Program-made: the position numbers and the translations under genes
Shown: one piece after another, positions 6,671 through 32,407 of the stretch
Layout: every line of letters starts with the position of its first letter
How positions within the stretch are numbered: the first letter of the stretch is position 1
Origin: a virus
IMG/VR virus record: IMGVR_UViG_3300031857_000256
Coordinates: 1 to 53,498 of that record
Strand: one strand, 5' to 3'
Length of the DNA: 53,498 bases
The notes under the pieces: generated by a model
What the model was told of the DNA's origin: nothing
The model's database searches: none
Seen by the model: the letters and a program-made list of their open reading frames with translations, nothing else

Positions 6671-7053
6671 TGGCGAGAAAATTACCAAATATAAATAGAG
6701 GAAACGATTTATTAAAAAGACAAAGATTGGAATTTAAAGATTTTGTGCTTAGAGTAAATACGGATACTTTTATTTATTCATATATACCGGACACACTTGA
6801 AGTAGTTGAAAATCTTTATTTTATACTAACATTACTAAATAAAAAATTTGTTTTTGATATTTTAGAAGTAGATGATGTTAGAGATTACATTGATGTATAT
6901 TTATTTGGAGTAAAACAACCACAAAGCAGATACAATGTAGAAGTTAGTGGAAATAATATAATTGTTACATTTGTTGCAGATGTTACTCGTTTACCAAATG
7001 AAGTACCTGCATCGGCATTTGAAATTAAAGGGAAAATAGTAGAAATAGTATAA
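6670..7053 (+). CDS. Small structural protein related to the preceding gene, 127 aa
   Basis: Begins at a TAATG overlap and ends at another TAATG overlap with giant fibre gene 1. The N-terminal half contains a charged helix and strands (RVNTDTFIYSYIPDTLEVV). The C-terminal half has DVYLFGVKQPQSRYNVEVSG, a strand with IIVTF, then FEIKGKIVEIV, which lines up with the ING-IS module of the preceding protein and of the gp15-like C-terminus, though more diverged. Tandem duplication of this module next to its gp15-like carrier is the simplest explanation. Because its stop is coupled to the first giant fibre, it may be the adaptor linking that fibre to the collar; this is inference only. Confidence 0.7.
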   Translation: MARKLPNINRGNDLLKRQRLEFKDFVLRVNTDTFIYSYIPDTLEVVENLYFILTLLNKKFVFDILEVDDVRDYIDVYLFGVKQPQSRYNVEVSGNNIIVTFVADVTRLPNEVPASAFEIKGKIVEIV

Positions 7054-10000
7054 TGGCAAGACTGATACCTCGTAAACAGATAGAAGAACAACAGAATATT
7101 TCTGGTTCCCTTACCATACAACAAAATGTAGATATAGGTAATGATGCCATTATTTCTGGCTCACTTTTTGTATCAAAAAGTTTCTTTTTAGGAAATGATG
7201 TTACCGATAAAAGTGAAATTACAGGATCTGTATTTTTAACAGGTTCGTTAGAAATAGATGGACAACTTGTATTTAAAGGACCAGAAGCAGTTTTATCTGC
7301 AACTGCATCAAATACTTTATTGGCAGTGGATACTCAACGATATGCTGGTATTCTTGCAAAAGATTTTGGTGCTAACGTTCCTACACTTTATGTATCTTCA
7401 ACCGATGGTGACGATAATAATGATGGTAGAAGTATTCAATATCCACTTCGTACAATTAAAAGAGCGGCATCTTTAGCTTCTCCTGGGTACGATGGTAGAT
7501 ACGGCTTTGATACTGGCTCAATTTTTAATGGATATGTGATTAAAGTACAGGCTGGAACGTATTTAGAGGATAATCCTGTGATTCTTCCTAAAAATACAAC
7601 CATTTGGGGTGCAGGTCTGCGTATTACAAAAATCAACGCTAAGAATCCAACGGAAGACCTATTTTTAGTAAACTCTGGATGTTATATAGCAGAGGTTACT
7701 ATGGGTGGACTGAGATTATTTCCAGACCAAATAAATCCTGTAAAGGGGTTTGCTGTGGCTTTCCAACCAGGAGCGTTTATTACAACTTCCCCATACGTTC
7801 AGAACTGCTCGCAAATTTCAAACCAAGAGAATTCATTCACCGAACTTTACGAAGATATTCCACCAGGCGGCGGAGGTCTTTACGTTAATGGTGATGTGAT
7901 AGATCCAGATTCTCCGTTGGCTTCAATGGTATTGGATGCTTACACTCAAATTTCTCCAAACGGCGTAGGTTGTTTGGTTAATGGTAGAGGGTTCATTCAG
8001 TTGGTATCTTTCTTTAATAACTTTTCATATTATTCTATTAGAGTAAACAACGGTGGACATGCTACCCTAAACAACTCAAACATTTCGTTTGGTTTGTATG
8101 GTATGTACGCATCAGGTTCTCGTTTTATATCTGGTAGTGGTGGTAACATAGCAGCTAGAGATTCCGTAAGAGGGACTTGGAGTGTAGTTGTAGACGTGTT
8201 AAATAAAGGATTAGAAGCGGGATTACCTACAATTACAAAATTAAATACCGATGAAGGTATTCGTTTAACATCACCGGCATTATATACACAAAGTAGAGTA
8301 TCGGCGGGTACTACATTATCAACAACGGCAGCATCGGAAATAGCTTCTGATTATAAATTAATTAGTGCAATTGTAGAAAATGGTACTGCAGACTTTCCAA
8401 CATTATTGGCACAAAGTTCTAATAAAGGATATGGATTTGATTCCCCTTACAATATTTTAGGAGAAGTACAAATAACATCATCCATATCAGCAACAAATAC
8501 TGATTTAACAAATATAAGTGGTTCATATGCGGCATTATTAAGTATATTGGCAAACGGTACTGGTTCATTTACATTTAAATCAAATAATGAAGATGCAATT
8601 AAAGTAACAAATACCACGGAATATCCATTGGGAACTGCATCACCATTTACGGCGAGTGTGAGTTCTTCATTTAGTACTATAATTGATATTTTGAAAAATG
8701 GATTATCGGCAAGTCCGGTATTGGTTTCAAATACTAGTTCAAGTTTATTAATAGGAACTGGTTCTCAATATTTTACCGGAATATCATCATCTATTGCAGT
8801 TAGAAATTCGGTAAGTGCTAGTTTTGGTATAGTATATGGTGTTTTACAAAATGGAACTGGTAGTAACATATTACCAATACCTGAAAATCATCAAAGAGTT
8901 TATACGATAGTTAATAGTGGTAGTATTGGATTTAAATTTGATGATGTAAATAATTCATTAAATCCAACTCTAACTTTATTCAGAGGTGAAACGTATAAAT
9001 TTAATGTAGATGCTACAGACGAGTTTGGTGGATTATTTTATCCGTTTTGGATTAGAACTGCACAAATTGCAGATATCGGTACTAAATATGATTATAATAA
9101 AGGTGTAATAAATAATGGTGATAGTACTGGTACAATTACATTTACTGTACCATATGATGCACCTAATACTTTATATTATGTAGCGGATAATAATAGTGTA
9201 ATGGGTGGCAAGTTGAATATTGTAAATTCATCAACAACACCTAGATACTTAATTCAAAATACATTAACATATCCTGAAACAATTTTAAGTTCATCGATAG
9301 CAAGTACTGATGTTGATAAAATAAATGCTTATGATTTATTAATAGGAAATAAAGAGCTTGTAAAAGATGAAGTAGTAAGATTTGTAAATTCGTCTTGGTC
9401 TGATTTAGATTATAATCAAGAAACTTGTAAAAGAGATGTTGGATTTATTATAGATGGTGTAGCTAAAGACCTTTTATTTGGCGGTAATGAAGAAAGTTTA
9501 AGAAGTGCACTTTATTATTACATATATCCATCTGAAGCTACCACAACACAAAAAGAACCAACAACATCTGCTGTAAAATATGCAGCTGGGCTGGTTGATA
9601 AATTATTAAGCAATGTAACATTACAGTCTGCTAATAATGATAAATTGGCAGTAGCGGAATCTATTTTAGATAATAGAATATTTGTACAAAATGAAACAAT
9701 AGCATTTTTAAGTTCTTCTTGGAGTGGAGATGATGGGTTCTATTACAATGAAGAAAAATGTAAAAGAGATGTTGGTTACATTTTAGATGCGGTAGCAACT
9801 GATGCATTATATGGTGGAAATGAAAGAGCTATTACGGCTGCAAGATTTTATTACTTATATCCATCGGCAGCAACTGTAGCTGGAGTTCCATCTTCAACCG
9901 CACAATTAGAACAAACATTAACCGGTATTAGATATGCGGCGGGTGTAGTTGGTGCATTACTTAAAAATAAAACATTCCAAACAGCATCGGCTACAACACA

Positions 10001-13000
10001 AGCGGCATATGATTTATTAAAAGCTAACAAAGAATTAATTCAAAATGAAACAATTCAATTTATTAATGTAACATATCCTCAATTAAAATATAATCAAACT
10101 AAATGTAGACGTGATGTTGGTTATATAATTGATAGTGTTGCAACCGATTTATTATATGGTGGAAACGAAAGAGGTGTTGTATCTGGTAGAAACTATTATG
10201 CATATCCATCAATAGCAACTTCAATACAAAGGAGAGAAACAATTGCTGGTGTTAGATATGCTAAAATTATTGGAGATTATATTGTTCAAAATATTATATT
10301 AGATACACCTAGAATTGTTAATAATGATGAAAAAAATATTAAGGTAACTGCTTTAGAAAATATAACATCATCATTTAGTGGCACAATTACTGAAAAGGCT
10401 TTAATTAGTAGTTCGTTTTCAATTGTTGAGGGAATTATTAAAGGTGGGTTACAAGCCATTCCATCTGTATTGGCACAAAATACTAATCAAAATTGGGGAG
10501 AAGCTAATCCATTAAATGTAACATCAAATGTTCAAACTACAAGTTCGTATGTAACTCCAAACGAAATTAATACAATAGATAGAAATTTCGGAATCGTTAC
10601 AAACATTATAGATAATGGAATATCATTAGAACCTGTATTAACTTCATCATTAGATGGATTAATTAAAGTAACCGATATTGCTCAAATAAGTGGAACATCT
10701 GCAACAAATAATGAAACTGCAAGTATTAGTTCATCATTTGCATATGTAATGAATGTTATAGCCGGTGGATTGGGACAACTACAACCATTGGTATCTAATT
10801 TAAGTGCAAGTATTGTAGTAACAAATACACCATTCATATCATCAACTGCTGCAAGTGGTTCTATTGGAACTTCCATTAGTTCTTCAATGAATACTATTGC
10901 AACTATTATAAGTGGTGGATTAGGTGTAGTTCCTACATTAATTTCATCTGTAGCAAATAGTATTAAAGTAACAAACACACCTCAATACATTTCAGCATCT
11001 TATAGTGGAAGTTTAGAAGATGTATCGTTTGTATCCGCATCAATCGCTATTGTAACAAGTATAATTAAAGGTGGTCCATCTCCGGCCAAAGTAGTTTATA
11101 CAACACCAGTATCTACCGTAAACGCTAAAGCTTCTTACGATTTATTAAAGCAAAACATTCCATTTATACAAAATGAAACTATTGCATATTTGAGTTCGTC
11201 TTGGGCTGGATTTGAATACGATGAGGTTAAGTGTAAAAGAGATGTTGGTTTAATAATTAGTGGTGCGGCCGAAGACCTTATATGGAATTCAAATTCGGCA
11301 TCTATTGTAAATGGTGAATATTATTATGAATTCCCATCACAGGCAACCGATACACAACTAAATCAAACTTTAGATGGTATTAATTATGCTAGTAGATTAG
11401 CTCAAAAGTTAATACAAAATATAGAATTCAACACAGCACCTATTAACAACCAAAATGCCGATACTTTATTAAAGAACAACAAAGTATTCATACAAAACGA
11501 AACAATCGCTTATATGAGTTCTTCTTGGGGTTTATTTGAGTATAATGAAGCTAAATGTAGAAGGGATGTTGGATATATCATAGATGCGGTTAGAACTGAT
11601 ATCGTTTATGGTGGAAATGAAAGAACAATTGAAGCAGGTAGATACTATTATTTATATCCATCTGAAGCAACTAGCACTCAATTGCAACAAACTACCGATG
11701 CGATTAATTACGCAAGTAGATTGGCACAAAAAGTAGTAGCAAATACAACCTTTGTAGTAGCTGATACGAATGCTTTAAATGCAAGTAATTTACTATCTTT
11801 AAACAAATCATTAATAGCTAGTGAAGTTGTTGAGTATGTAAGTTCTTCTTGGAGTGGTGTTCAATACGATGAAAATAAATGTAAGAGAGATGTAGGATAT
11901 ATTTTAGAGGCAGTAAGAACTGACTTAGTTTATGGTGGTAACGAGAGAACTACAATAGCTGGGCAGTATTATTATCTATTCCCATCTGCAGCAACTGTTG
12001 GTGGTGAACCTACCGCAACTCAACAATTAGACCCAACAATAACTGGTGTAAATTATGCACGTAGATTAGCACAAAATATTGTATTAAATAAAACATTAGT
12101 TTCTCCAACTCAAGCTGTTTTAGATGCTAGAGAATTGGTAAAAACTAACACAACATTTATACAACAAAATGTAATTGAATATATTTCTGATACATACCCT
12201 ACATTGAATTACAAAGTAGATAAGTGTTTCAGAGATGTAAGATTTATTGTTGATGGAGTACTTACTGATTTGGTGTATGGTGGTAATGAGAGAAGTTTAC
12301 AATCAGGAGAATTCTATTACAAATATCCATCACAAGCAACCGATTCGCAAGCAAATGAAACAATAGATGCAATTAACTTTGCAAAAGAATTAAGTAAATT
12401 AATTGCAATTGGTGGTAAGGCTATTGAAGATGGATTTGATACTGTTGTAGATATTATTAGTAGTGGAAGTTTAGGTTATCCAACTTTAGTTTCAAATACT
12501 TTAGCTGGAATTAAAGCAACAAACGAACCACAATTTGTAACACAGAGTTCGGTATTAACATCGGATAAATCAATAGTATCCGCATCTTTTGGAAATGTAA
12601 TTAATATTATAGATAAGGGTGTAAATGTTATTCCAACTATTATATCTTCTACAAATAGAGGTATTAATAAACTTGGTAATGTTCAAACTACATCATCAAT
12701 AACTCCAGTTGCAACGGATATAAACAAAGTTGGAAGTGGATTTGATATTGTATTAAATATTATAGCAAACGGAACTGGTTCAATACCATCCAAAATCACA
12801 AACACATCATCTGTAATTAAGAGAACCGATAGTGTACAATATATTACAACGGCATCTATTTCATCAACATATTTAACAAATGCAAATTCTGCATTTGATA
12901 TCGTATTGGATGTTCTTGAAAATGGAACTGGTTCTTTACCTTCGTTGGTTAAAAATGTAAATGGTTTAGTTAAATTAACAAATAGTACGCAATATACATC

Positions 13001-16000
13001 TTCAATGAATGTTAGTAGTTCTAGAGTTAATAGTATCACTTCATCATTTAATACTGTTATAAACATATTAGAGAATGGAACTGGTTCGTTACCAAATATT
13101 ATTTCAAATAATTTTAATAATGTTAAAGTAACAAATGGATTAAATTATGTATCAGCATCTTATAGTGGCACATCGATACAATCTACATTTATATCGGCAT
13201 CAATTTCAATTGTAACAAATATAATTGCGAATGGAACTGGTAGTTTACCTAATATAACTTTATATACATCATCAATATCATCATCTGCTGTTTTAGATGC
13301 ATATAATATATTAAAAGCACATATACCATTTATACAAGATGAAACAATCGCATACTTGAGTTCTTCTTGGAGTACCGCATCTTATGATGAGGCTAAATGT
13401 AGACGTGATATTGGTTTAATTGTAAGTGGAGCAGCTGAAGACCTTATATGGAATTCAAATTCTGCCTCCGTTGTAAATGGTAAATATTATTATGAGTATC
13501 CATCGCAGGCGCAAGGTGCACAATTAAATCAAACGTTAGATGGTGTATTCTATGCAAGTAAATTGGCACAAAAAGTAATATTAAATACTTTATTTACTTT
13601 ACCAACACCACAAACAAATACGGCATATGATTTATTAATTAATAATAAAGAGTTTATCCAAAACGAAACAATTGCATACATTAGTTCTTCTTGGAGTACA
13701 AAGGAATATAACGAAACAACTTGTAAGAGAGATGTTGGTTATATATTAGATGCAATTGCAACTGATGTTAAATGGGGTGGTAACGAAAGAGCAGTAACTG
13801 CGGGAGTGTTCTATTATAAATATCCATCAGCGGCAACCGGCTCTCAATTAAAAGAAACTGTGACTGGTGTAACTTACGCTAAAAATTTAGCAGATAAGTT
13901 ATTAAGAAATGCACAATTCCAAAAAGTATCTCAAAACAAATTACAAGCTAAAGACCTTATTGTAAATAATAAGAGTTTTATAGAAAATGAAGTAATTGCA
14001 TATGTATCGGCTAGTTGGAGCGAGTTTTCATATAACGAAACAACTTGTAAGAGAGATGTTGGTTATATATTAGATGCTGTAGCAACTGATATTATTTATG
14101 GTGGAAATGAGAGAAGCTATGAGGCTGGTAGATATTATTATTACGAACCGTCAACAGCAACTACAACTCAATTAGGCCCAACGTTAAGTGGTGTTAAACA
14201 CGCTAAAGGGTTGACACAACAAATACTTAAAAATTTATTATTTGTTAAACCATCTAATTCTGCACAAATTGCATACGAACTATTATTTAATAATAAGGCA
14301 CTTATACAAAACGAAACAATCGCATTTGTAAGCTCTTCTTGGAGTATGTTTAATTACAATGATGTTAAGTGTAGACGTGATGTGGGATATATTGTAGATG
14401 CAGTAGCAACTGATATTCTTTATGGTGGTAATGAAAGAGTTTCTGAAGCAGGAGAATATTATTACTTATATCCATCATTAGCAACCGTTGAAGGTGATGG
14501 TAACGAATCCGGACAATTAGACCAAACATTGGATGGTGTTAAATACGCTAAAGGAATAGCACAAAAAATTGTAGCAAATACTTTATTACAAACACCAACA
14601 GAATCCGAAAGAGCTGGATATGATTTATTAATAAAGAATAAACAATTAATTCAAAAAGAAACTATTGCTTATATTAGTTCTTCTTGGAGTGGTATTGGTT
14701 CATTCTCTTATAATGAGGCAAGTTGTAGTAGAGATGTGGCTTACATTTTAGATAATGTAGCAACCGATTTATTATATGGTGGTAATGAAAGAAGTTCTAA
14801 AGCTGGTGAGTACTATTACTTATATCCATCTAAAGCAACTGTAATCAGTTCAATATCACCTGATACTAATTCTCAAAAAGGACCAACAATAGATGGTGTA
14901 ACCTTTGCTGCAGGAATAGCACAAACTATTTTAAATAATACTACATTAATACAACCAACCGATTATGTTAAATCGGCAGTAAGTTTATTAAAAGCAAATA
15001 GGCAATTTATACAAAATGAAACAATTCAATACATAGATGCATTCTTCCCTTACTTAACTTATTTAAGAGAAAAATGTAGACGTGATGTTGGATATATTGT
15101 TGATGGTGTAGCAACTGATTTATTCTATGGTGGAAACCAAAGAAGTATAACTTCTGGTGATTACTACTTTAGATATCCAAACAAAGCAACAACATCGGAC
15201 CAACTTTCAGAAACGGTATCCGGTATTGAATACGCTAAAGCAGTATCTAAAAAAGTAGTACAAAATATTTTATTAAGAAAGCCGGTTACTAAAGATAATA
15301 CATCCGCTAATATAAAGGCAACTGATACAAATCAATATACTTCATCTATAAATGTTAGTACAACTGAAATAAGTAAGATTAGTTCTTCATTCTCAATTGT
15401 AACTGATATAATAGCAGGTGGTGTTAGTGTATCTCCAATAAAAGTATTAAATACAGAAGCTGGAATTAAAGTAACCAATGAAACGGCAGTAACTTCATCT
15501 ATAAATGGTGGCAACACATATGCTGATTTAGTAACATCATCATTCAATTTAGTAAGAGATATTATTTACTATGGTGAAGCTGGTATACCTGATGCATTGG
15601 CTAGAAACTATGATTATGGTTTCGAATTACAAACTCCAACTTTATTACATATCAGTTCAACTGAACAAAGTGTAATAGGTGGAACTAATAATGCTAGTGA
15701 TTTGGTTGATGTTAGTGCCTCTTACGCAACTGTAATTGATATTGTTAATAATGGTACTGGTTCTATACCAACTATTATAGAAAATACATCATCATCAATA
15801 AATGTAATAGGTGGAACTCCATATCAATCTCCTGTAGCCGGTACAACTACTGATATAAATAAAATTGGTAGTGGATTTGGAATTGTAACTGATATAATTG
15901 AAGGAACTTATCCAACTGTTGTATCAAACACAACAAATGGTGTTAAGGTAACAACAACTCCTCAGATATTAATAAATGGTAGTACCGCACAAAGATTACA

Positions 16001-19000
16001 AGCTAAGTTAGTATCATCATCATTTGCGGTAGTAACAAATATTATCTTAAATGGTACTGGTTCTCAAACATATGTAGCACCATCGGCAACCGCAAATACT
16101 AATCCAAGAATAACATCAGCTTACAATTTATTAGTAAGTAATAGTTTAATGATTGTTGATGAGACTATAGCATATATGAGTTCATCTTGGAGTACATTTG
16201 ATTATAATGAAGAAAAATGTAGACGTGATTTAGGATATATTATTGATGGAGCAGCTTCTGACCTTTTATATGGTGGAAACTCTGGTTCATTCTTAAATGG
16301 ACAATTTTATTTATTAATACCATCACAAGCAACATCTTCTCAATTAGACCAAACTCTAACTGCTATTAGATATGCTAGTGGTATTTCTGAAAAGGTAATT
16401 CAGAGCCAATTATTAACACATATTTCAGCATCACAAAGTACATCAGCATCTTATGTATCATTATTAGAGAACAAAGAGTTCATACAAAACGAAGCAATTG
16501 CTTATGTATCTTCGTCTTGGTCAACATTTGATTATAATGAAACAACTTGTAGACGTGATGTGGGATATATTGTAGATGCGGTAGCAACTGACCTTTTATA
16601 TGGCGGTAATGAAAGAAGTTGGATAGCAGGAGATTACTATTTCAGATATCCATCACAGGCTACAACTTCACAATTACAACCAACATTAGATGGTATAAAT
16701 TACGCCAAAGGTGTGGCAATGAATGTAGCTAAAAATACTACATTTGTAACTGCTGATGTAAATACACAATTCTCTTATGATATTTTATTAGCAAATAAAG
16801 AGTTCATACAAAATGAAACTGTTGCATTTGTAAACGCTAAGTATCCTAACTTATATTATGACCAAATCAAATGTAAGAGAGATGTGGGATACATTGTAGA
16901 TGCAGTAGCAACTGATTTATTGTATGGTGGAAACGAAAGAGCAGCAATAGCTGGTGAGTTCTATTACTTATATCCTTCATTGGCAACTGAATCAGAGCAA
17001 GTAGTTGAAACAACTGCGGCAATTGATTATGCTAGAAGATTAAGTTTAGAAATAATTCAAAAGAATACCATTTCTACTCCACAAATTGTATCAAATACAT
17101 TTAATAATATCAAAGTAACAAATATATCACAAATAAGTGGTGTAGCGGCAACTCAAACTGAAGCAACTGCTATATCTTCTTCTATTGGTATTGTAATTGA
17201 TATCGTATCGAATGGTACTGGTTCATTACCAATATCAATTCCTTATACAACACCATCTACTGACCCTAATGTAATAAATGCATATAATAACTTAAAAGCT
17301 AATATACCATTTATCGCAGCAGAGACAGTTGCATATATAAGTTCGTCTTGGGTGACTGGTTCTAATTCGGATACGGCATTTGTTTACAATGATTTAAGTT
17401 GTAGTAGAGATGTTTCGTTGATTGTTAGTGGAGCAGCAGAAGATTTATTATGGAATAGTAATTCGGCATCTATTGTAAATGGTAAGTATTATTATGAATA
17501 TCCATCACAAGCAACCAATACACAATTGGATGAAACATTGGATGGTATTTCTTACGCATCTCAATTAGCACAAAAGATTGTATTGAATACATTGTTTGTA
17601 ACCGCATCACCAACCGCTTCAGCAGTTTACAACGCATTAAAAACCAACAAACCATTCATACAAGCAGAAACAATAGCATTTGTATCTTCATCTTGGAGTT
17701 CATTAAATTATAGTGAAGCTAAATGTAAGAGAGATGTTGGTTTAATAGTGGATGCAGTAGCAACTGATATTCTTTACGGAGGAAATCAAAGAAGTGCAAC
17801 TGCTGGACAATATTATTTCAAATATCCATCACAAGCTACTGGTTCTCAATTAGATTCAACATTGAACGCAATTGATTTCGCAGGTGGTACGGCTAAGAAT
17901 GTAATTACAAACACAACATTTGTAACTGCATCTCAATCAGTATCAGCATCGGTTGAATTATTAAGAAACAATAGATTATTCATACAAAATGAAACTATGG
18001 CTTACTTAACTGCTAGCTGGAGTTCATTTGAATATAACAAAGAGAAGTGTAAGAGAGATGTTGGTTATATCTTAGATGGTGTAGCAACTGATATCTTATA
18101 TGGTGGTAATGAACGAAGTGTAATGAGTGGAGATTTCTATTACAAATATCCTTCAAAGGCAACTTTATTAGGAGATGGTGATGGTGTGGGTCAATTAGGA
18201 CAAACTTTAGATGGTATTATTTACGCAAGTAGAATAGCTCAAAAAGTTGCACAAAATATACAATTCGTAACAGCATCATCAGCAGTATCTGCCTCATTTG
18301 ATTTGTTGAGAAAGAATAAAAATTTCATAGCAGCTGAAACTATCGCTTATGTTAGTTCTTCTTGGAGTGGAGTTTATTATAATGAAGCAAGTTGTTCACG
18401 TGATGTGAAATATATCATAGACGCGGCGGCAACCGATTTATTATATGGTGGAAGTGAAAGAAGCGTAACCGCTGGTTCATACTATTTCTTATTCCCATCA
18501 AAAGCAACTGTAAAAGGTGTACCATCTGAGGCAGCACAATTAGACCCAACAATTACAGGCGTAAGATATGCTGGTAAATTGGCAAGTAAGGTTGTAACAA
18601 ACCCAACTTTCATATTACCATCAGCATCTCTATTAACAACTGTTAATTTATTAACATCGAATAAACCATTAATACAAAAAGAAACTATAACATTCTTGAG
18701 TTCTTCTTGGAGTACATTGAAGTATAATGAAACGAGTTGTTCTCGTGATTTAGGATTTATTATAGACGCGATTAGAACTGACTTAGTTTATGGTGGTAAC
18801 GAAAGAAGTATTGAAGCAGGTTCTTATTATTATAAGATTCCATCTGTTGCAATTAAAGAATCATATACTGATAACGGCGAAGCTGGACAAAAAATCCAAA
18901 CTGTTGATGGTATTGATTTCGCAAGAGGCCTTTCTGAAAAGATTGTTTCAAACACTTTATTAACTTATCTAGCACCATCTACAAAGAGAAGACAAGCGGC

Positions 19001-19601
19001 TGATAGATTGAGAGGTTCTAAAGATGAATTAAGACAAAGAGCAATCGGATACACAAACGGAGCATTCCCTTATTTAGTTTATAACGAAGCGAGTTGTTCT
19101 CGTGATACTGGTTTGATTGTTGATGCTTGTTGTACTGATTTATTATATGGTGGAAACGAAAGAGGTATTGCAGCGGCATCATCTTACTATAATGGTCAAT
19201 ACGGTAACGCAATTGCCGTAACTAGAGACCAACTTTTAGAGACTTTGGAAACTAATAGATATTTAAGAACAAGAGCAGAGTTTATAGCAGCTGGAGCACC
19301 ATTAGAATCATTTGGTTCATTGATTGTGGCAACTGGTATTGACTACTCTTATAATGGTAGTGGTGTTACGTTTAAAGCACTTCCACCGAATCAGGGTGGT
19401 AGTGGTGTTGCAAATCCGGCATTTGAAATTACCGAATTGGGTGGTGGTAGAATTTACTTTACATCTGGTAACGAAACTGGTGACTTTAGAATTGGTACGG
19501 GATTAAGTATTAATCAGGCAACTGGTACTCTTGTGGGTAGAACATTTAGTAAATCTCTATTCTCATTGGTAACTCCGTTCTCATTGGCACTACAAATATA
19601 A
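7053..19601 (+). CDS. Giant tail fibre / virion structural protein 1, 4182 aa
   Basis: Start codon overlaps the upstream stop (TAATG). Order of parts: residues 1-105, ISGSL/TGSL beta spacers; about 109-350, a right-handed beta-helix domain of the pectate-lyase/DUF1565 type opening with LYVSSTDGDDNNDGRS and PLRTIKRAASLA; about 368-610, five copies of a 'B' module (SSSF-IV--II-NGTGS-P...IKVTN); about 612-725, a degenerate cupredoxin-like domain; about 757-4060, alternating blocks of an 'A' module (FIQNETIAY, SSSW, CKRDVGYI, GGNER, YYYLYPS) and more B modules; 4060-4182, a C-terminal domain with ALPPNQGGSGVANP, GGRIYFTSGNETGDFRIG and TPFSLALQI. The A repeat and this C-terminus are familiar from giant structural proteins of T4-like cyanophages. 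A cysteine precedes xRD in each of the 22 A copies. No enzymatic active site is evident; a long, flexible virion fibre is likely. Confidence 0.85.
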   Translation: MARLIPRKQIEEQQNISGSLTIQQNVDIGNDAIISGSLFVSKSFFLGNDVTDKSEITGSVFLTGSLEIDGQLVFKGPEAVLSATASNTLLAVDTQRYAGILAKDFGANVPTLYVSSTDGDDNNDGRSIQYPLRTIKRAASLASPGYDGRYGFDTGSIFNGYVIKVQAGTYLEDNPVILPKNTTIWGAGLRITKINAKNPTEDLFLVNSGCYIAEVTMGGLRLFPDQINPVKGFAVAFQPGAFITTSPYVQNCSQISNQENSFTELYEDIPPGGGGLYVNGDVIDPDSPLASMVLDAYTQISPNGVGCLVNGRGFIQLVSFFNNFSYYSIRVNNGGHATLNNSNISFGLYGMYASGSRFISGSGGNIAARDSVRGTWSVVVDVLNKGLEAGLPTITKLNTDEGIRLTSPALYTQSRVSAGTTLSTTAASEIASDYKLISAIVENGTADFPTLLAQSSNKGYGFDSPYNILGEVQITSSISATNTDLTNISGSYAALLSILANGTGSFTFKSNNEDAIKVTNTTEYPLGTASPFTASVSSSFSTIIDILKNGLSASPVLVSNTSSSLLIGTGSQYFTGISSSIAVRNSVSASFGIVYGVLQNGTGSNILPIPENHQRVYTIVNSGSIGFKFDDVNNSLNPTLTLFRGETYKFNVDATDEFGGLFYPFWIRTAQIADIGTKYDYNKGVINNGDSTGTITFTVPYDAPNTLYYVADNNSVMGGKLNIVNSSTTPRYLIQNTLTYPETILSSSIASTDVDKINAYDLLIGNKELVKDEVVRFVNSSWSDLDYNQETCKRDVGFIIDGVAKDLLFGGNEESLRSALYYYIYPSEATTTQKEPTTSAVKYAAGLVDKLLSNVTLQSANNDKLAVAESILDNRIFVQNETIAFLSSSWSGDDGFYYNEEKCKRDVGYILDAVATDALYGGNERAITAARFYYLYPSAATVAGVPSSTAQLEQTLTGIRYAAGVVGALLKNKTFQTASATTQAAYDLLKANKELIQNETIQFINVTYPQLKYNQTKCRRDVGYIIDSVATDLLYGGNERGVVSGRNYYAYPSIATSIQRRETIAGVRYAKIIGDYIVQNIILDTPRIVNNDEKNIKVTALENITSSFSGTITEKALISSSFSIVEGIIKGGLQAIPSVLAQNTNQNWGEANPLNVTSNVQTTSSYVTPNEINTIDRNFGIVTNIIDNGISLEPVLTSSLDGLIKVTDIAQISGTSATNNETASISSSFAYVMNVIAGGLGQLQPLVSNLSASIVVTNTPFISSTAASGSIGTSISSSMNTIATIISGGLGVVPTLISSVANSIKVTNTPQYISASYSGSLEDVSFVSASIAIVTSIIKGGPSPAKVVYTTPVSTVNAKASYDLLKQNIPFIQNETIAYLSSSWAGFEYDEVKCKRDVGLIISGAAEDLIWNSNSASIVNGEYYYEFPSQATDTQLNQTLDGINYASRLAQKLIQNIEFNTAPINNQNADTLLKNNKVFIQNETIAYMSSSWGLFEYNEAKCRRDVGYIIDAVRTDIVYGGNERTIEAGRYYYLYPSEATSTQLQQTTDAINYASRLAQKVVANTTFVVADTNALNASNLLSLNKSLIASEVVEYVSSSWSGVQYDENKCKRDVGYILEAVRTDLVYGGNERTTIAGQYYYLFPSAATVGGEPTATQQLDPTITGVNYARRLAQNIVLNKTLVSPTQAVLDARELVKTNTTFIQQNVIEYISDTYPTLNYKVDKCFRDVRFIVDGVLTDLVYGGNERSLQSGEFYYKYPSQATDSQANETIDAINFAKELSKLIAIGGKAIEDGFDTVVDIISSGSLGYPTLVSNTLAGIKATNEPQFVTQSSVLTSDKSIVSASFGNVINIIDKGVNVIPTIISSTNRGINKLGNVQTTSSITPVATDINKVGSGFDIVLNIIANGTGSIPSKITNTSSVIKRTDSVQYITTASISSTYLTNANSAFDIVLDVLENGTGSLPSLVKNVNGLVKLTNSTQYTSSMNVSSSRVNSITSSFNTVINILENGTGSLPNIISNNFNNVKVTNGLNYVSASYSGTSIQSTFISASISIVTNIIANGTGSLPNITLYTSSISSSAVLDAYNILKAHIPFIQDETIAYLSSSWSTASYDEAKCRRDIGLIVSGAAEDLIWNSNSASVVNGKYYYEYPSQAQGAQLNQTLDGVFYASKLAQKVILNTLFTLPTPQTNTAYDLLINNKEFIQNETIAYISSSWSTKEYNETTCKRDVGYILDAIATDVKWGGNERAVTAGVFYYKYPSAATGSQLKETVTGVTYAKNLADKLLRNAQFQKVSQNKLQAKDLIVNNKSFIENEVIAYVSASWSEFSYNETTCKRDVGYILDAVATDIIYGGNERSYEAGRYYYYEPSTATTTQLGPTLSGVKHAKGLTQQILKNLLFVKPSNSAQIAYELLFNNKALIQNETIAFVSSSWSMFNYNDVKCRRDVGYIVDAVATDILYGGNERVSEAGEYYYLYPSLATVEGDGNESGQLDQTLDGVKYAKGIAQKIVANTLLQTPTESERAGYDLLIKNKQLIQKETIAYISSSWSGIGSFSYNEASCSRDVAYILDNVATDLLYGGNERSSKAGEYYYLYPSKATVISSISPDTNSQKGPTIDGVTFAAGIAQTILNNTTLIQPTDYVKSAVSLLKANRQFIQNETIQYIDAFFPYLTYLREKCRRDVGYIVDGVATDLFYGGNQRSITSGDYYFRYPNKATTSDQLSETVSGIEYAKAVSKKVVQNILLRKPVTKDNTSANIKATDTNQYTSSINVSTTEISKISSSFSIVTDIIAGGVSVSPIKVLNTEAGIKVTNETAVTSSINGGNTYADLVTSSFNLVRDIIYYGEAGIPDALARNYDYGFELQTPTLLHISSTEQSVIGGTNNASDLVDVSASYATVIDIVNNGTGSIPTIIENTSSSINVIGGTPYQSPVAGTTTDINKIGSGFGIVTDIIEGTYPTVVSNTTNGVKVTTTPQILINGSTAQRLQAKLVSSSFAVVTNIILNGTGSQTYVAPSATANTNPRITSAYNLLVSNSLMIVDETIAYMSSSWSTFDYNEEKCRRDLGYIIDGAASDLLYGGNSGSFLNGQFYLLIPSQATSSQLDQTLTAIRYASGISEKVIQSQLLTHISASQSTSASYVSLLENKEFIQNEAIAYVSSSWSTFDYNETTCRRDVGYIVDAVATDLLYGGNERSWIAGDYYFRYPSQATTSQLQPTLDGINYAKGVAMNVAKNTTFVTADVNTQFSYDILLANKEFIQNETVAFVNAKYPNLYYDQIKCKRDVGYIVDAVATDLLYGGNERAAIAGEFYYLYPSLATESEQVVETTAAIDYARRLSLEIIQKNTISTPQIVSNTFNNIKVTNISQISGVAATQTEATAISSSIGIVIDIVSNGTGSLPISIPYTTPSTDPNVINAYNNLKANIPFIAAETVAYISSSWVTGSNSDTAFVYNDLSCSRDVSLIVSGAAEDLLWNSNSASIVNGKYYYEYPSQATNTQLDETLDGISYASQLAQKIVLNTLFVTASPTASAVYNALKTNKPFIQAETIAFVSSSWSSLNYSEAKCKRDVGLIVDAVATDILYGGNQRSATAGQYYFKYPSQATGSQLDSTLNAIDFAGGTAKNVITNTTFVTASQSVSASVELLRNNRLFIQNETMAYLTASWSSFEYNKEKCKRDVGYILDGVATDILYGGNERSVMSGDFYYKYPSKATLLGDGDGVGQLGQTLDGIIYASRIAQKVAQNIQFVTASSAVSASFDLLRKNKNFIAAETIAYVSSSWSGVYYNEASCSRDVKYIIDAAATDLLYGGSERSVTAGSYYFLFPSKATVKGVPSEAAQLDPTITGVRYAGKLASKVVTNPTFILPSASLLTTVNLLTSNKPLIQKETITFLSSSWSTLKYNETSCSRDLGFIIDAIRTDLVYGGNERSIEAGSYYYKIPSVAIKESYTDNGEAGQKIQTVDGIDFARGLSEKIVSNTLLTYLAPSTKRRQAADRLRGSKDELRQRAIGYTNGAFPYLVYNEASCSRDTGLIVDACCTDLLYGGNERGIAAASSYYNGQYGNAIAVTRDQLLETLETNRYLRTRAEFIAAGAPLESFGSLIVATGIDYSYNGSGVTFKALPPNQGGSGVANPAFEITELGGGRIYFTSGNETGDFRIGTGLSINQATGTLVGRTFSKSLFSLVTPFSLALQI
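8890..9228 (+). other. Degenerate cupredoxin-like domain in giant fibre 1
   Basis: The encoded segment runs from PTLTLFRGETYKFNV through NNGDSTGTITFTVP to LYYVADNNSVMGGKLNIV and aligns with the two intact domains of giant fibre 2. Of the four expected copper ligands only Met remains: the first His is Tyr (FYPFWI), Cys is Ala and the second His is Asn. It probably keeps the fold without metal. Confidence 0.65.
9324..19230 (+). repeat. Alternating A-module (22 copies) and B-module array
   Basis: By hand I count 22 A modules (about 85-125 residues, marked by C-x-RD and GGN) in five blocks of 3, 4, 6, 3 and 6 copies. B-module blocks of 5, 6, 5 and 1 copies lie between them, and five more B copies precede the array. 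Approximate A-block limits are 9324-10290, 11115-12410, 13290-15290, 16110-17085 and 17275-19230. The copies differ at DNA level, so the array is old rather than freshly amplified. First and last copies of blocks carry distinctive signatures (see findings). Confidence 0.85.
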
Positions 19602-19628: not shown

Positions 19629-20546
19629 ATGGCAGAAGTTTTTGTACCGTTAAACCGATTCCAGTCAGTAGTAACAAATCTGACTGGCGAGCAAGATGAA
19701 ATTTATATAACCCCGGCCGGAGTATCATCAATTGTGCTATCAGCGCAAATTACCAATAATGATTTAATAGTTCAGCCGGTTACGATATTGGTAACATCTA
19801 ATAGAGAATTACCTGTGCCAAGATTTGAAACAATATATAGTGGTAGTTCATTTATAAGTTCTTCTGTATCTTTATTAAATTTTAGCGGTAGTTTTGCTAG
19901 TGCATCTTTATTATTAAATGCAAATAGACAATTTTTAAGAAAAGAAATAGCAGCCTATACTCAAAACCAAAATAATTTATCGGAAACTCCATTTACCTTT
20001 ATATCATCATATTTTGAACAAAATACATTAGATGATGTGGATGCAATAAAATATGATATTGCAAATAACACAACTAGTAGAACAAATAAAGCGGCAAAAG
20101 CGTATTTTGATAAAAATGGGGTATCCGCAATCGCTTCAACTGAATATTCTGCATCAATATTTGCTTTAGATTATTTAAAAGTATTATCAAATCAAATTAT
20201 AAAAAATGAATCTGTAACGGGTTCTGCTCAAGTTGAATTAATATACCAAAACACGGTAACACAATCTATATTATCCGGATTCAATAATGGAACAAGTAAC
20301 GAAGTATCAGCATCTATATATGTAGTAAATTCTTTAGTAGATGTTATCAAAGCAACTATTGAAAGCCCTGTATTTGTTGAACAAGAACCGGTTAAATTGG
20401 TTACAAATGTAACAATACCGGCTGCGGATTCACTTTCACCGGTAGTTTCTGGTAAATTAGTATTAGAAGAAGGTTATGGTTTTATAGTTTCCGGCTCAAC
20501 AAATCTATCGGTAGTCCTATCTTTACTTGAATCTGCGAATGAATAA
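19629..20546 (+). CDS. Fibre-associated beta-sandwich protein with inserted repeat domain, 305 aa
   Basis: The leader (19602-19628) is almost all A and supplies only a weak ribosome-binding site. The N-terminus NRFQSVVTNLT, then IYITPAGVSSIVLSAQITNN, is familiar from small proteins next to giant fibres in T4-like marine phages. The C-terminus has GKLVLEEGYGFIVSGS followed by LSVVLSLLESANE. These two ends correspond to the N- and C-terminal halves of the 110-residue protein at 33189, which has ITYTAPAQTSATVIGVSVAN and QKLVMEENDYLSVVSS. Between them, about residues 90-230, is a helical insert with LLLNANRQFLRKEIAAY, DDVDAIKYDI and FALDYLKVLSNQIIKN, a degenerate, cysteine-free version of the A module of giant fibre 1. 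It probably binds or caps giant fibre 1; this is inferred from the shared module and adjacency. Confidence 0.75.
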   Translation: MAEVFVPLNRFQSVVTNLTGEQDEIYITPAGVSSIVLSAQITNNDLIVQPVTILVTSNRELPVPRFETIYSGSSFISSSVSLLNFSGSFASASLLLNANRQFLRKEIAAYTQNQNNLSETPFTFISSYFEQNTLDDVDAIKYDIANNTTSRTNKAAKAYFDKNGVSAIASTEYSASIFALDYLKVLSNQIIKNESVTGSAQVELIYQNTVTQSILSGFNNGTSNEVSASIYVVNSLVDVIKATIESPVFVEQEPVKLVTNVTIPAADSLSPVVSGKLVLEEGYGFIVSGSTNLSVVLSLLESANE

Positions 20547-20615: not shown

Positions 20616-23600
20616 ATGGCAATTAGTAATCTTTTAACGGGTAGGGTTAGGGTTGTATCCCCAAAAAATGTAACACAGGACAGGTATCAATTTATTGATT
20701 TATCTCAAGTTGAACCCAATTTAGGTGTTCCAAACTTTTCTGCCTCATTATCAGGCTCTCCGGCTATCGTAGTTTCGGATGACCAGGGTAATAGAGGATT
20801 TGTAAGAAGTTTAGATTTAGATAGAGTAAGTGGACAATTTACAGGTTCATTTACCGGAAGTGCAGATTTAACTGGTTCTTTTAGAGGAGATTTTAGTGGA
20901 GATGGTTCAAAATTAATTAATTTACCAATTTCCGATACCGCACAAAAATTAGCATCTGCATCTTTTACCGCATCATTTAGTAGTGGTGGTCTTGATATCA
21001 ATACAAATACCAATATACAAGGTAATTTGTCCGTAACCGATGATGTAAGAATTGGTGGAAACTTATATGTTTCAAAATCTATATATGCAGACCAATTAAT
21101 TGTTAATGTAATATCATCTTCAATTATATATTCATCTGGTTCAAATAAATTTGGTGATGAATCAATTGATAAGCAAGAATTTACTGGTTCGGTTGAAATA
21201 AGAGATAGAGTTGGTGCAAATGAAATTACAGCATCTTCTATTTTGAGTCAGTTTACTGGTTCATTCTTTGGAGACGGTAGAGATTTAAAAAATGTTCCAG
21301 CTATATTATTAGCAAGTGGCTCGGTAACCGCTTCTATTGTAGGTGACCTTATTATATTCAATGCACAAAGTGCATCGTTTTTAGGTGGCGTACAAATTAC
21401 AGGTAGTTTATTATTAAACACAGGATCTGTTGTAATTGAATCGGGTTCTATTGTTGCAGCAAGGGGTGTTATCAATCAACTTACTGCATCTTCTATTATA
21501 AGCCAGTTTACTGGTTCATTCTTTGGAGATGGTAGAGATATATTCAATCTACCACAGGCTACAAAATTAGCAACGGGATCTGTAACCGCATCAGTTAGTC
21601 CTCAATTTGGATTTAAAGTAGAATCTATTTTAAGAGGTTCTGAATTTACTGGTAGCGTAGATGTATTAGGTAATATATCAGCATCTATGTTTAGTGGTAG
21701 TGGTAGAGGATTATTTGATATTCCACGTTCTGCTCTAACACCGGATGCATTAACATCTACCGAGATATCATCGGGTTCAGTAACGGCATCTGTGGCACCG
21801 GAATATGGATTTAGAGTTTTATCAATAGCAAGTGGTTCACACTTTAGCGGAAGTGCATATATTGATTCATCTTCTTTTATATACGCTGATGGTTCTAGAT
21901 TAAGAAACATACCAAGAAGTGCATTAACCGAAGATGCATTGGTTACTACCGAAATCAAATCTGGTTCAGTAACCGCATCGGTTGCACCCAATTACGGATT
22001 TAAAGTATTATCAATTGATAGTGGTTCGCATTTTAGCGGAAGTGTTTATATCGATTCTTCTTCATATCTTTATTCCGATGGTAGATATTTAAGAAACATA
22101 CCAAGAAGTGCATTGACTGAAGATGCGTTAGTTTCTACTGAAATTAAATCTGGTTCAGTAACAGCATCAGTTTCACCTGAATATGGATTTATTGTAACCA
22201 CTCCATTTAGTGGTTCCAGTTTTGGTTCTAGATTTACTGGTTCGGTTGATGTGAGTGGAAGTGTTAGAGCATTTTCATTTATTGGTGATGGTTCTCAATT
22301 AACAAATGTTGCATCGGTAGTTTCTCCGAGAATTGCAAGTGGTAGTGTAACTGCATCGGTATCACCAAATTTTGGGTTTGTAGTATTTTCACCAAATAGT
22401 GGGTCTCAATTTACAGGTTCACTTTTTGTAAGTGGAAATATAGAAATATATACGGGTTCTTTTTCTGGTAGTGGTAAATTATTGAGAGAAATTCCTGTAT
22501 CTGCTATACCTGATTTAGACCTTTCAAAAATAGGTAGTGGTTCTGTAACGGCATCTATAACGCCAAATAAAGGATTTACTGTAAATATATTTTCACAATT
22601 TAGTGGAAGTATGGTGGTATCTTCTTCTGTATTTGAAATACCTACTGCATCATTAGATACTGTTTTTGATGTAAGGAATGATGGAACTACCGCATATATT
22701 TTTAGTAATGCGGTAACGGGTTCTAATCCAACATTAACATTAGCTAGAGGAGTTCTATATACATTCAACTTAAATGCGGCGGGACATCCATTCTATATCA
22801 AAACCGTACAATCATCTGGTACTACAAACGCATATAATACCGGTGTAACTAATAATGGAGATGATGTGGGTGTTATAACATTCATTCCATCGGCCGGTGC
22901 TCCTGATACTCTTTACTATAACTGCCAATTACATTCCGCAATGGGTGGTAGAATTAATATTGTTGATAAAATAGTAAGACCTGCGGAAATTAAATTTATT
23001 GGAGATACTACTGTAACGGGTAGTTTATTTGTAAAAGATAGAATAGAAGCTAGAGAAATAAGTGCATCATTTAGTGGTTCATTTAGAGGAACTTTTGATG
23101 GAGATGGTTCTAATTTATTTAATTTACCATCTGCAACAAGATTGGCATCTGGTTCCATTACTGCATCGGTAAGTCCAGATAGAGGATTTGTTGTACAATC
23201 ACAAAATAGTGGTTCACAATTCACTGGTAGTATTAATGTAACTGGTTCCGTAACTGCAATTAACTTTATTGGAAGTGATTTTAGTGGTTCATTTCAAGGG
23301 GATGGTAGTAGATTAGTAAATCTTCCGTTACCTCAACCAAATAGAATTTTAGATGGACCAGTAACGGCATCGGTTTCATCTATTGATGGATTTGTTGTAA
23401 AATCTCAAGCAAGTGGTTCTCAATTTAGTGGAAGTTTAAGAATTAGTGGTAGTATATTTTTAGCATCTGGTTCTTTCTATTCTGGAAGTGGTAGAGGATT
23501 ATTTGATATTCCAAGAACCGCTTTAACTGAAGATGCGTTTTTAATTGATAGAATCGTAAGTGGTAGTGTAACTGCATCCGTATCACCTCAATTTGGATTT

Positions 23601-26600
23601 AGAGTTGTTTCGTATGATAGTGGTTCACAATTTACAGGAAGTTTAAATGTAAGTGGAAGCATATTTTTAGCATCTGGTTCTTTTTATTCTGGAAGTGGTA
23701 AAGGATTATTTGAAATTCCACGTTCTGCGATATCCGATTTAGATATATCATTAATATCATCTGGTTCGGCAACTGCTTCTATTTCACCTAACAAGGGATT
23801 ATTAGTTAATGTACCAACTACAATTAATGGATTTTTAGTTGTAACCGGTTCTACTGATATAAAAGCAAATTTAGTAGTAACGGGTTCTGCAATTATTAGT
23901 AGTTCTTTATTATCTAAAGGAGTTTCTAGATTTGAATCTGGAGTTTCTGCATCAGTATTTAGTGGTAGTGGTGCTGGGTTGACAGACATACCTTTTTCGG
24001 CATTATCACAAGAATTAACTAGAATTGCAACTGGTAGTGTAACGGCATCGGTTTTTCCTGATAAAGGATTTGTTGTAGAATCATTAAGAAGTGGTTCACA
24101 ATTTACCGGAAGTTTGAGAGTTAGTGGTAGTATATTTTTAGCATCTGGTTCTTTCTATTCTGGTTCTGGTGAAGGATTGTTTAATATTCCAAGAACCGCT
24201 TTAACACCGGACGCATTAGAATCAACATACATAGCATCAGGTTCTATAACAGCTTCGGTATCACCTAGATTTGGATTTAGAGTAGAATCTCTGGAAAGTG
24301 GTTCTCAAATTACTGGTAGTATAAGAATTAGTGGAAGTTTGTTTGCAACAAATGACTTAACGATTAGTGGTAGCGGAAATGTATTGGGAGATATTAATGT
24401 ACAAGGTGATGCAACGGTATCGTCTGGTTCTTTCTTTGTTGGAGATGGTAGATATCTATCAAACATAACATTAGCTAATTTAGCAATTGATTCAACAAAA
24501 ATATTTAGTGGTTCAGCAACCGCATCGGTATCACCAACTGAAGGATTTGAAGTAAATGTTCATTCTAGATTTGATGGAAGTTTTATAGTATCATCATCTG
24601 GAAGACCTACACCTGATTATTTAATTGATACAATTGTTAATGTAACAAACGATGGTTCAAATGCATATATAATAAGTAATGCTTCTATATCTGGTTCAAA
24701 CCAAACAATAACATTACAAAGAGGATTACAATATACATTTAATGTAAATGCATCTGGACATCCATTTTGGATTAAATACGTTAATTCTACCGGAACTATA
24801 TGGGAATATAGTGGAAGTATAACAAACAACGGAGAAGATAATGGAACAATACTTTGGACTCCACCATCTGGTTCTCCTAATGTTCTTTACTATAATTGCC
24901 AGTTACATAGTAGTATGGCTGGTCAAATAAATTTAATTGACTACACGGAAATACCGGCAGAAATTAAATTTATTGGTGAAACTAAAGTAGAAGGTAATAT
25001 AACCGCATCTATGTTTAGTGGTAGTGGTAAGGGATTGTTTGATATTCCTTTCTCAAACTTAACTGGTGATGCGTTTAGAATTGCAAGTGCAAGTGTAACA
25101 GCATCGGTTTCTCCAGATAGAGGATTTATTGTAGAATCATTCCAAAGTGGTTCTGGATTTAGCGGAAGTATTTATATAGATTCATCATCTTTCATATATT
25201 CAGAAGGTACTTATTTAAGAAACATACCAAAATCTGCACTTACGGAAGATGCATTAGTTTCTACTGAAATTAAATCGGGTTCTGTAACCGCATCGGTATC
25301 TCCTGATTTTGGATTTAAAGTACAAACTCCATTTACATCATCTGTATCTGAAAGTGTGTTTACAACACAAATTGCTTCACAATTTACCGGTTCGGTTTCA
25401 ATTAGTGGAAGTTTATTTGTTAATGATATTAGTGGTGGATTGTTTGTAGAATCCGGTTCATTTATTTACGCGGAAGGTACATATTTAAGAAACATACCAA
25501 AATCGGCAATTACTGAAGATGCATTATTATCTTCGTTTATTGTATCTGGTTCAGTAACAGCATCAGTTTCACCTGATTTTGGATTTAGAGTTGTAACACC
25601 ATTTACTGAATCGCAAGTGGGTTCTCAATTTACAGGAAGTGTTGATGTTAGTGGTTCATTAAGAGCATTTTTCTTAATAGGAGATGGTTCGCAGATTACA
25701 AACGTACAAGCAGCGGCATCTCCGTTGATAGCAAGTGGTTCGGCAACTGCATCGGTAGCAAGTGGTGATAGATTAGTAGTAACAACTGCTAAAACTGGTT
25801 CGGAAATTGGTTCTGAATTTACCGGTTCAATAGAAGTTAGTGGTAGTATAAGAGCAACCGATGATATATACGCAGACTTCTTCTATGGTGATGGTAGATA
25901 TATCACAAATGTAGTAGCCGCAGCGGCACCATTCATTGGAAGTGGTAGTGCAACTGCATCGGTAGCGGATGGTGAACGTTTTGTTGTAATTACTGCAAAA
26001 ACTGGTTCACAAATTGGTTCTGAATTTACTGGCTCTGTTGAGATTAGCGGTTCATTAATAGTAAAAGATGATGTAACTGCGGATTTCTACTTTGGTGATG
26101 GTAGATTCCTTACCAATGTACAAGCGGCGGCGGCACCATTGATTGCTAGTGGTAGTGCAACTGCATCGGTACAAAGTGGTAGAATATTTGAAGTAATTAC
26201 TAAAGCTCCATCTGGTTCATTTGGTTCTCAATTTACCGGTTCGGTAGCTATTAGTGGTGCATTATCAGCATCTTTATATCAAGGAGATGGTGGTGGATTA
26301 TTTAACATTCCTGCATCAGCACTTCAAAATCTTCAATTAGATAGAATTCAATCCGGTTCTGCTAGAGCAATTATAAGTCCTGATGAACTAAATGTAAACG
26401 TACCAATAACAGCGGCACTTTACATAGGTGATGGTGGTGGACTATTTAATATCCCTGCAAATGCATTGCAAGACCTTAAGTTAGATAGAATTATATCTGG
26501 TTCCGTAGAAGCTGTTATTTCTCCAAATAAAGGTTTAGAAATTAATACTAGAGTAAGAATCTTCTCTGGTTCGGCAGAAATAAGTGGTGGTTTATTTATA

Positions 26601-31507: not shown

Positions 31508-32407
31508 ATGAGTATAGCAAGAAAATTAATACCAAGTGGAGAAGAACAATTTCCATTTAAGATTCAAATAACAACAACTCTAGCAAATACGGTATTTACT
31601 GTACCGTTGGTTGATTATGGTGGATTGGCACCACAACTAACTATTAATTGGGGTGATAGTAGTAGTTCTCCATTAATAACATCATCCACATCCATTAATA
31701 GAACACATACTTACGTTTCTCCTGGTACATATATCATTAGTATAACTGGATTTATGCCTGGGTTTAAAGTAAATAATAATACAAGTATAAGGAGTTTAAT
31801 AACGGCAATTATACAATGGGGAAATGTTGGTTTAAGAACAATGGACTTTTATGGTTGTGTAAATATAACATCAATACCAACTAGTGCAAGTATTAGTAGT
31901 TTTGGTGGATATACCGGATTAAGTGAAATGGTATTATTTTCTTCATTTATGAGAGGTACTCGTATAACTACAATACCTGATGATTTATTTGATTATTCAC
32001 CAAATGCAACAACGTTTGCGAATGCGTTTGATGCTATAACAACTTTAACTTCTGTACCTAATGGATTATTTGATAATGTTCCATTGGCATCGACATTTGC
32101 ATCTTGTTTTTTAGCATGTACGGCACTCACGTCAGTTCCAACAGATTTATTTGACCAAAATATAAACGTCATAAACTTTTCATCTACGTTTCGTAACTGT
32201 AGGTCATTAGTAAATGTTTTACAATTTACATATAATACGAATGTTTCTATTTTTAATAACATTTATAATATGTCTACAACAGCAAACGCATTGACAGGAA
32301 CTGCACCGGAATTATGGAATAGAATTCCAGCACCATCTGGTACCGATGCTTTTAACAACTGTATTAATTTATCAAATTTTGCATCTATACCTTTAAATTG
32401 GAAATAA
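31508..32407 (+). CDS. PKD-like + leucine-rich-repeat (BspA/DUF285-type) tail protein, 299 aa
   Basis: Starts 11 bases after giant fibre 2. Residues about 25-85 resemble a PKD-type beta-sandwich: LTINWGDSSSSP followed by RTHTYVSPGTYIISITG. From about residue 95 to the end, the protein has leucine-rich repeats of the BspA/DUF285 kind, with units such as TTIPDDLFDYSPNATTFANAF, LTSVPNGLFDNVPLASTFASC and LTSVPTDLFD, the last consisting of a partial repeat ending FASIPLNWK. DUF285 repeats are common at surface-exposed ends of bacterial adhesins and in some phage tail proteins. Placement directly downstream of a giant fibre makes it a good candidate for a receptor-binding tip or a fibre partner. 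No signal peptide or enzyme motif is present. Confidence 0.75.
   Translation: MSIARKLIPSGEEQFPFKIQITTTLANTVFTVPLVDYGGLAPQLTINWGDSSSSPLITSSTSINRTHTYVSPGTYIISITGFMPGFKVNNNTSIRSLITAIIQWGNVGLRTMDFYGCVNITSIPTSASISSFGGYTGLSEMVLFSSFMRGTRITTIPDDLFDYSPNATTFANAFDAITTLTSVPNGLFDNVPLASTFASCFLACTALTSVPTDLFDQNINVINFSSTFRNCRSLVNVLQFTYNTNVSIFNNIYNMSTTANALTGTAPELWNRIPAPSGTDAFNNCINLSNFASIPLNWK

Follow-up and report, generated by a model that had tools for sequence, protein, structure and literature searches.

A giant tail-region protein encoded in the 53,498-nucleotide stretch analysed here (hereafter the window; IMG/VR record IMGVR_UViG_3300031857_000256, positions 1 to 53,498) carries 22 copies of an A repeat, which are probably best explained as phycobiliprotein-fold domains stacked in blocks, the variant copies at the block ends being caps with free faces. 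A bound bilin is not included in this explanation. The protein comes from an uncultured T4-like phage and is encoded by a single ORF spanning the whole repeat region (Table 1), with an N-terminal part, B repeats and five A-repeat blocks. By eye, the N-terminal part (7053-9300) looks like a parallel beta-helix (TLYVSSTDGDDNNDGRS...) and is followed by a cupredoxin-like stretch at about aa 640-725. A possible kinship with gp12, the T4 short tail fibre, is suggested only by the PHROG name of the protein, and no Pfam fibre domain was detected in it by a Pfam scan.

Anchoring on C-x-R-D recovered exactly 22 A copies, spaced by 108-119 aa inside blocks and 176-391 aa at block junctions, which gives a layout of 3, 4, 6, 3 and 6 copies, as counted in the sequence-only reading of this DNA. 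That reading had placed the repeat region at 9324-19230; the last copy ends near 19286-19304, not at 19230. Its description of the block ends was borne out: SGAAEDL[IL]WNSNSAS opens blocks 2, 3 and 5, the related DGAASDLLYGGNSGS opens block 4, [YF]P-x-L-x-Y is present in the closing copies of 5/5 blocks, and a recount found 0 internal copies with an opener or closer signature. A trait of the block-1 opener had been overlooked, namely that the internal-consensus T and R are missing (GVAKDLLFGGNEES for AVATDLLYGGNERS).

Table 1. Features of the A-repeat protein and its neighbour in the window
Feature	Position	Strand	Remark
Giant tail-region structural protein, 4182 aa	7053..19601	+	PHROG 4527/5342 'short tail fiber'/'tail fiber', E 5e-196 / 5e-178
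Block 1, three A repeats	9312..10313	+	
Opener of block 1, without T52 and R61 (GVAKDLLFGGNEES)	9312..9635	+	
Closer of block 1, VTYPQLKY	9990..10313	+	
B-repeat spacer, blocks 1/2	10314..11117	+	
Block 2, four A repeats	11118..12434	+	
Opener of block 2 (SGAAEDLIWNSNSAS)	11118..11441	+	
Closer of block 2, DTYPTLNY	12111..12434	+	
Block 3, six A repeats	13284..15284	+	
Opener of block 3 (SGAAEDLIWNSNSAS)	13284..13607	+	
Closer of block 3, AFFPYLTY	14961..15284	+	
Block 4, three A repeats	16104..17081	+	Modelled with B flanks (pLDDT 76, all-helical)
Opener of block 4 (DGAASDLLYGGNSGS)	16104..16427	+	
Closer of block 4, AKYPNLYY	16758..17081	+	
Block 5, six A repeats	17271..19304	+	Final copy strongly diverged
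Opener of block 5 (SGAAEDLLWNSNSAS)	17271..17609	+	
Closer of block 5, GAFPYLVY	18981..19304	+	
Similar B-repeat spacers	12435-13283, 15285-16103, 17082-17270	+	
C-R-R-D motif of copy 15, one of 22 C-x-R-D	16548..16559	+	Aligns with phycocyanin bilin-attachment C84-x-R86-D87
C-x-R-D Cys codon starts, copies 1-11	9426, 9759, 10104, 11232, 11556, 11880, 12225, 13398, 13722, 14046, 14370	+	
C-x-R-D Cys codon starts, copies 12-22	14724, 15075, 16218, 16548, 16872, 17400, 17724, 18048, 18393, 18738, 19095	+	
305-aa neighbour protein, one degenerate A-like domain without C-x-R-D	19629..20546	+	

The A repeat is almost certainly homologous to phycobiliproteins. A profile of 148 copies matched 90 PDB chains (best E 7.1e-5), the best 60 of these 90 being all phycobiliproteins, and in the alignment C-x-R-D falls on the bilin-attachment motif C84-x-R86-D87. 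Against the phycocyanin alpha/beta profile, hhalign gave 84.6% (E 6.7e-6) for copies of the window clade alone and 95.2% (E 2.8e-8) once isolates were added, compared with 0.1% for an unrelated control. A single-domain AlphaFold2 model built on a deep alignment (112 rows) reached a pLDDT of 87.8, and phycobiliproteins made up 50/50 of the top Foldseek matches listed, with probabilities up to 1.00, TM values up to 0.78 and weak E-values (0.16-0.6). They were also most of the PDB matches listed for the block-4 model. Pfam family PF00502 (Phycobilisome) scored above its cut-off in 5/13 records, all cultured cyanophages (giant ORFs of S-CAM1, S-PM2, S-WAM2 and S-RSM4; a large ORF of DSL-LC03). The window protein itself had no PF00502 match, the Pfam scan of its 22 copies was also empty, a PDB search with these copies alone reached phycocyanin at E about 1 only, and one with a block profile gave no match; what ties the window copies to phycobiliproteins are profiles in which copies from relatives were included.

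The resemblance covers the helical fold from helix B on, the invariant C-x-R-D and, in closers and standalone copies, the proline turn before this motif. Sequence homology is confined to about the first 59 columns and stops after GG. Compared with the 160-177 residues of phycocyanin, phycoerythrin or allophycocyanin, the A domain has about 108: its B-E loop is short of about 11 residues, and the N-terminal helices (residues 1 to ~35) are missing. Hence, the A domain is a shortened relative and is not classed as a true phycobiliprotein, and its bilin pocket may be incomplete. Unlike phycobiliproteins, A domains follow one another along a single chain of a viral tail-region protein, and their bilin is only putative. 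We found no literature report of phycobiliprotein-like domains in phage virion proteins, within an incomplete coverage of the literature. Dispersed A-like domains do occur in tail-region proteins of 1500-7400 aa in cultured Synechococcus and Prochlorococcus phages (Kyanoviridae). Their giant 'short tail fiber' or 'virion structural' proteins (PHROG 4527, 5342; S-PM2, S-CAM1, ACG-2014i) share with the window protein homologous domains in a tail-region protein of 3400-4500 aa, and PF00502 is above cut-off in S-CAM1, S-PM2 and S-RSM4, whereas their copies are dispersed and standalone instead of forming capped tandem blocks. No fold was seen named in the annotations of these proteins.

That the A repeats actually bind a bilin is possible, though we rather doubt it. 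C-x-R-D is present in 22/22 window copies. A scan of viral contigs yielded 69 loci, reduced to 30 non-redundant ORFs with 506 copies, in which counts were made by model columns; C, R and D were each conserved in 506/506 copies, and only six columns are invariant, these three among them. The motif nevertheless lends itself to another reading, with about an even chance of being correct: the A domain would derive from phycobiliproteins, have lost its chromophore and serve as a helical spacer with a structural role only, C-x-R-D being kept for core packing or helix support. The absence of the B-E loop and N-terminal helices is in line with such a spacer, as are C-x-D-D in place of C-x-R-D in some isolate copies and the need of a phage for a long fibre, tail fibre being the PHROG name. 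It accounts less well for an unbroken C, R and D in a domain that mostly drifts to about 50% identity, and for the 305-aa neighbour, in the ORF after the giant gene. The degenerate 23rd A-like domain of that protein (19911-20213) is conserved in relatives with C-x-R-D in 0 of the 52 ORFs checked, so an A domain can persist without the motif. The ho1-PcyX genes of relatives, with psbA absent from the large ones, also weigh against a mere spacer.

These genes encode a heme oxygenase and a PcyX-like ferredoxin-dependent-type bilin reductase (ho1-FDBR), adjacent and overlapping in 4/4 relatives larger than 200 kb (G007, G009, G017, G020), in the same genome as the A array and far from it; an overlapping pair was also found in G002 and G016. 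The relatives' reductase matches PF05996 above cut-off, has PcyX (5owg, 1.2e-19) as its nearest PDB entry, retains the conserved His and Asp in 4/4 and falls below the NCBIfam PcyA equivalog cut-off. A CpeS-type lyase is absent from the large relatives, and no bilin genes were found in the window, a 53-kb fragment. Other reductase-positive contigs with A domains are G026 and G034-G037, with weak single domains in G029, G030 and G032. In large relatives, loci L093, L094, L095, L096 and L097 show overlapping heme oxygenase and PcyX-like genes near ThyA, GroEL/GroES-like and other genes, without psbA.

It could equally well be true that the bilin genes act in the metabolism of the host or in freeing iron while infection proceeds, the A arrays alongside them being a coincidence of lineage. 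Indeed, several bilin-reductase contigs, two of them of 200-251 kb, have no A array, and a role in host light harvesting or iron supply has been proposed (PMC11480375). Against a coincidence, array and genes occur together in all four relatives above 200 kb, with no psbA, and Mel-JY01, the closest isolate when judged by tail sheath, lacks A domains as well as FDBR. The tail sheath of the window phage is nearest to that of a Microcystis phage, then to those of Flavobacterium phages, and the contigs of tail-sheath relatives are too short for a clade-wide count of co-occurrence. Because reductase contigs without arrays exist and arrays tend to break assemblies, the link between A array and bilin genes is suggestive only. 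In 10/10 cultured cyanophages measured (L078, L080, L081, L083, L084, L086, L087, L090, L091, L092), the giant gene has a CpeT-type lyase gene 0.3-2.0 kb upstream of it; this placement may be mere synteny, reflecting shared ancestry rather than 10 independent events.

Under the bilin-loaded reading, a heme oxygenase and a PcyX-like reductase encoded by the phage itself would make a bilin during infection that becomes covalently attached to the Cys of C-x-R-D, on as many as 22 A repeats in each tail protein, and the virion would carry stacked chromophores on a pigmented tail protein. We propose this scenario only tentatively. The A-repeat motif fits that of phycobiliproteins or of BBAG-1/3, members of the bilin biosynthesis-associated globins (BBAGs). 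The C-x-R-D globins among BBAGs load bilins themselves, without lyases (PMC10151467); like the A domain, BBAGs are globin-like, have C-x-R-D in BBAG-1/3 and are associated in genomes with heme oxygenase and FDBR, but they are single cellular proteins of heterotrophic bacteria, whereas here the array is viral and multi-domain, and the bilin genes lie in another part of the genome. If true, a bilin-loaded tail could have a role in light, in redox or oxidative protection or in host-surface recognition, and would give a purpose to the phage bilin genes PcyX, PebS, Ho1 and CpeT. The bilin-synthesis genes of phages are functional; the purpose of pcyA/pebS and cpeT in phages was termed a mystery (PMC3037559) and the phage hemO-FDBR cassette 'still enigmatic' (PMC11480375). 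As a candidate bilin acceptor inside the phage, the A-repeat protein makes this question testable with expression systems and cultured cyanophages.

The block ends follow a rule that extends across the viral relatives. In the 30 ORFs, A copies form runs of 2-8 with conserved order. W29 was present in 385/385 copies with a follower (openers and internal copies) versus 2/113 closers, T52 in 385/385 copies with a predecessor versus 0/113 openers, R/K61 in 381/385 copies with a predecessor versus 4/113 openers, and [YFW]P in 109/113 closers versus 0/272 internal copies. Given the W29 and T52 counts in non-redundant relatives, these position-specific residues are not due to chance. The near-perfect placement upholds the proposal that the blocks are real units with N- and C-terminal variants and not a random array. 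The runs of 8 (L020, L027, L030, L037) correspond to block 4 (three copies) joined to block 5 (five copies) through a linker of 14-18 aa that contains no B repeat. These fused blocks still show [YFW]P in the closer, and the next opener still lacks R61; contact with a B repeat is therefore not the cause of the caps.

Standalone copies indicate in which direction the residues changed. Among isolate copies with the loop covered, SSW occurred in 0/56 and [YF]P in 24/56, and other residues usually stand in place of T and R. In phycocyanin, P64 is invariant at the place of the closer proline (KFPYTT in the alignment). Since [YF]P is common to phycocyanin and the standalone copies, this motif of the closers is ancestral, whereas SSSW, T52 and R61 inside blocks are derived and dependent on a neighbour. 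The polarity implied earlier, with closers replacing the usual SSSW, is thus reversed.

As W29 is tied to a follower and T52 to a predecessor, and standalone copies lack both, these residues probably mark repeat-to-repeat contact faces, the caps being the faces left free. In the proposed arrangement, shortened phycobiliprotein-fold (bilin-globin) domains would be strung in blocks, each docking onto the next in head-to-tail order. The first helix pair ends in the SSSW loop, which would face the following copy; the C-x-R-D helix end with the GGNER loop (D48, T52, E60-R61) would face the preceding one, and W29 of one copy would touch T52/R61 of the next. An opener, having no predecessor, would lack D, T and R; a closer, having no successor, would show the ancestral [YF]P. 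The caps would then be held by selection on contact rather than be marks of recent block copying, and each stack could be a rigid section of rod flanked by B stretches. Counted from C-x-R-D, D48 and T52 take the places of R93 and Y97 in phycocyanin, which are invariant there and which we take to be alpha-beta interface residues. No usable covariation signal emerged from the mutual information of neighbouring copies when copies two apart were taken as the control. In ankyrin, HEAT and TPR arrays, internal repeats likewise have common interface residues that are replaced in the N- and C-terminal copies, but their fold and interface are different, and the A repeat, a 108-aa globular unit, is not a member of these families. 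The arrays would show a route to a stackable domain, with two faces altered only beside a neighbour and free ends left ancestral.

The tree of the 22 copies gave a mixed answer to the expectation that openers group with openers and closers with closers. Openers 2, 3 and 5 form one clade (support 100/99), with opener 4 at 93/87, and closers fall on one side of a branch (83/85) when all columns are included. Role required 3 changes on this tree versus 9.0 in shuffles, and block membership 13. After removal of the signature columns, the clade of openers 2, 3 and 5 persisted (88/84), whereas closers needed 4 changes versus 4.6 for shuffles, a value equally low in 149/500 of them. The openers thus have common descent, and the closers have the signature alone in common. 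Identity among internal copies was 0.55 both within and between blocks. When window copies were compared with seven relatives of similar layout, 121/154 best matches had the same block and position and 153/154 the same role. From the positional matches, the layout is long established and has been maintained by selection, as the earlier reading had allowed; its other option, the copying of a block as a unit, was not sustained, and no trace of it is left in the sequences. Inheritance of both signatures through duplication of whole blocks with their end copies, instead of selection on an interface, is therefore improbable: it would account for the opener clade, and is opposed by closers unclustered outside the signature, internal copies without block-wise similarity, block-1 and fused-block openers with other residues in place of T and R, standalone isolate copies in the same free-face states, and the positional orthology.

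A further position-dependent trait of the A copies is an insert of 7-10 residues that follows the PS-x-AT turn. It was observed in copies 2, 6, 11, 12, 19, 20 and 21 (9645-9986, 11766-12107, 14256-14957, 17934-18971), just ahead of the closers of blocks 1, 2, 3 and 5. Downstream of the A-repeat protein and before the tail sheath gene lie two giant ORFs (20616-31496, 3626 aa; 33534-43187, 3217 aa) with long collagen-like Gly-x-x (GTS/GSS) stretches. A 299-aa protein of LRR/BspA-like appearance (31508-32407, by eye) sits between the two, and the second giant ORF contains 4 tandem units of 81 bp (27 aa) at 35822-36136.
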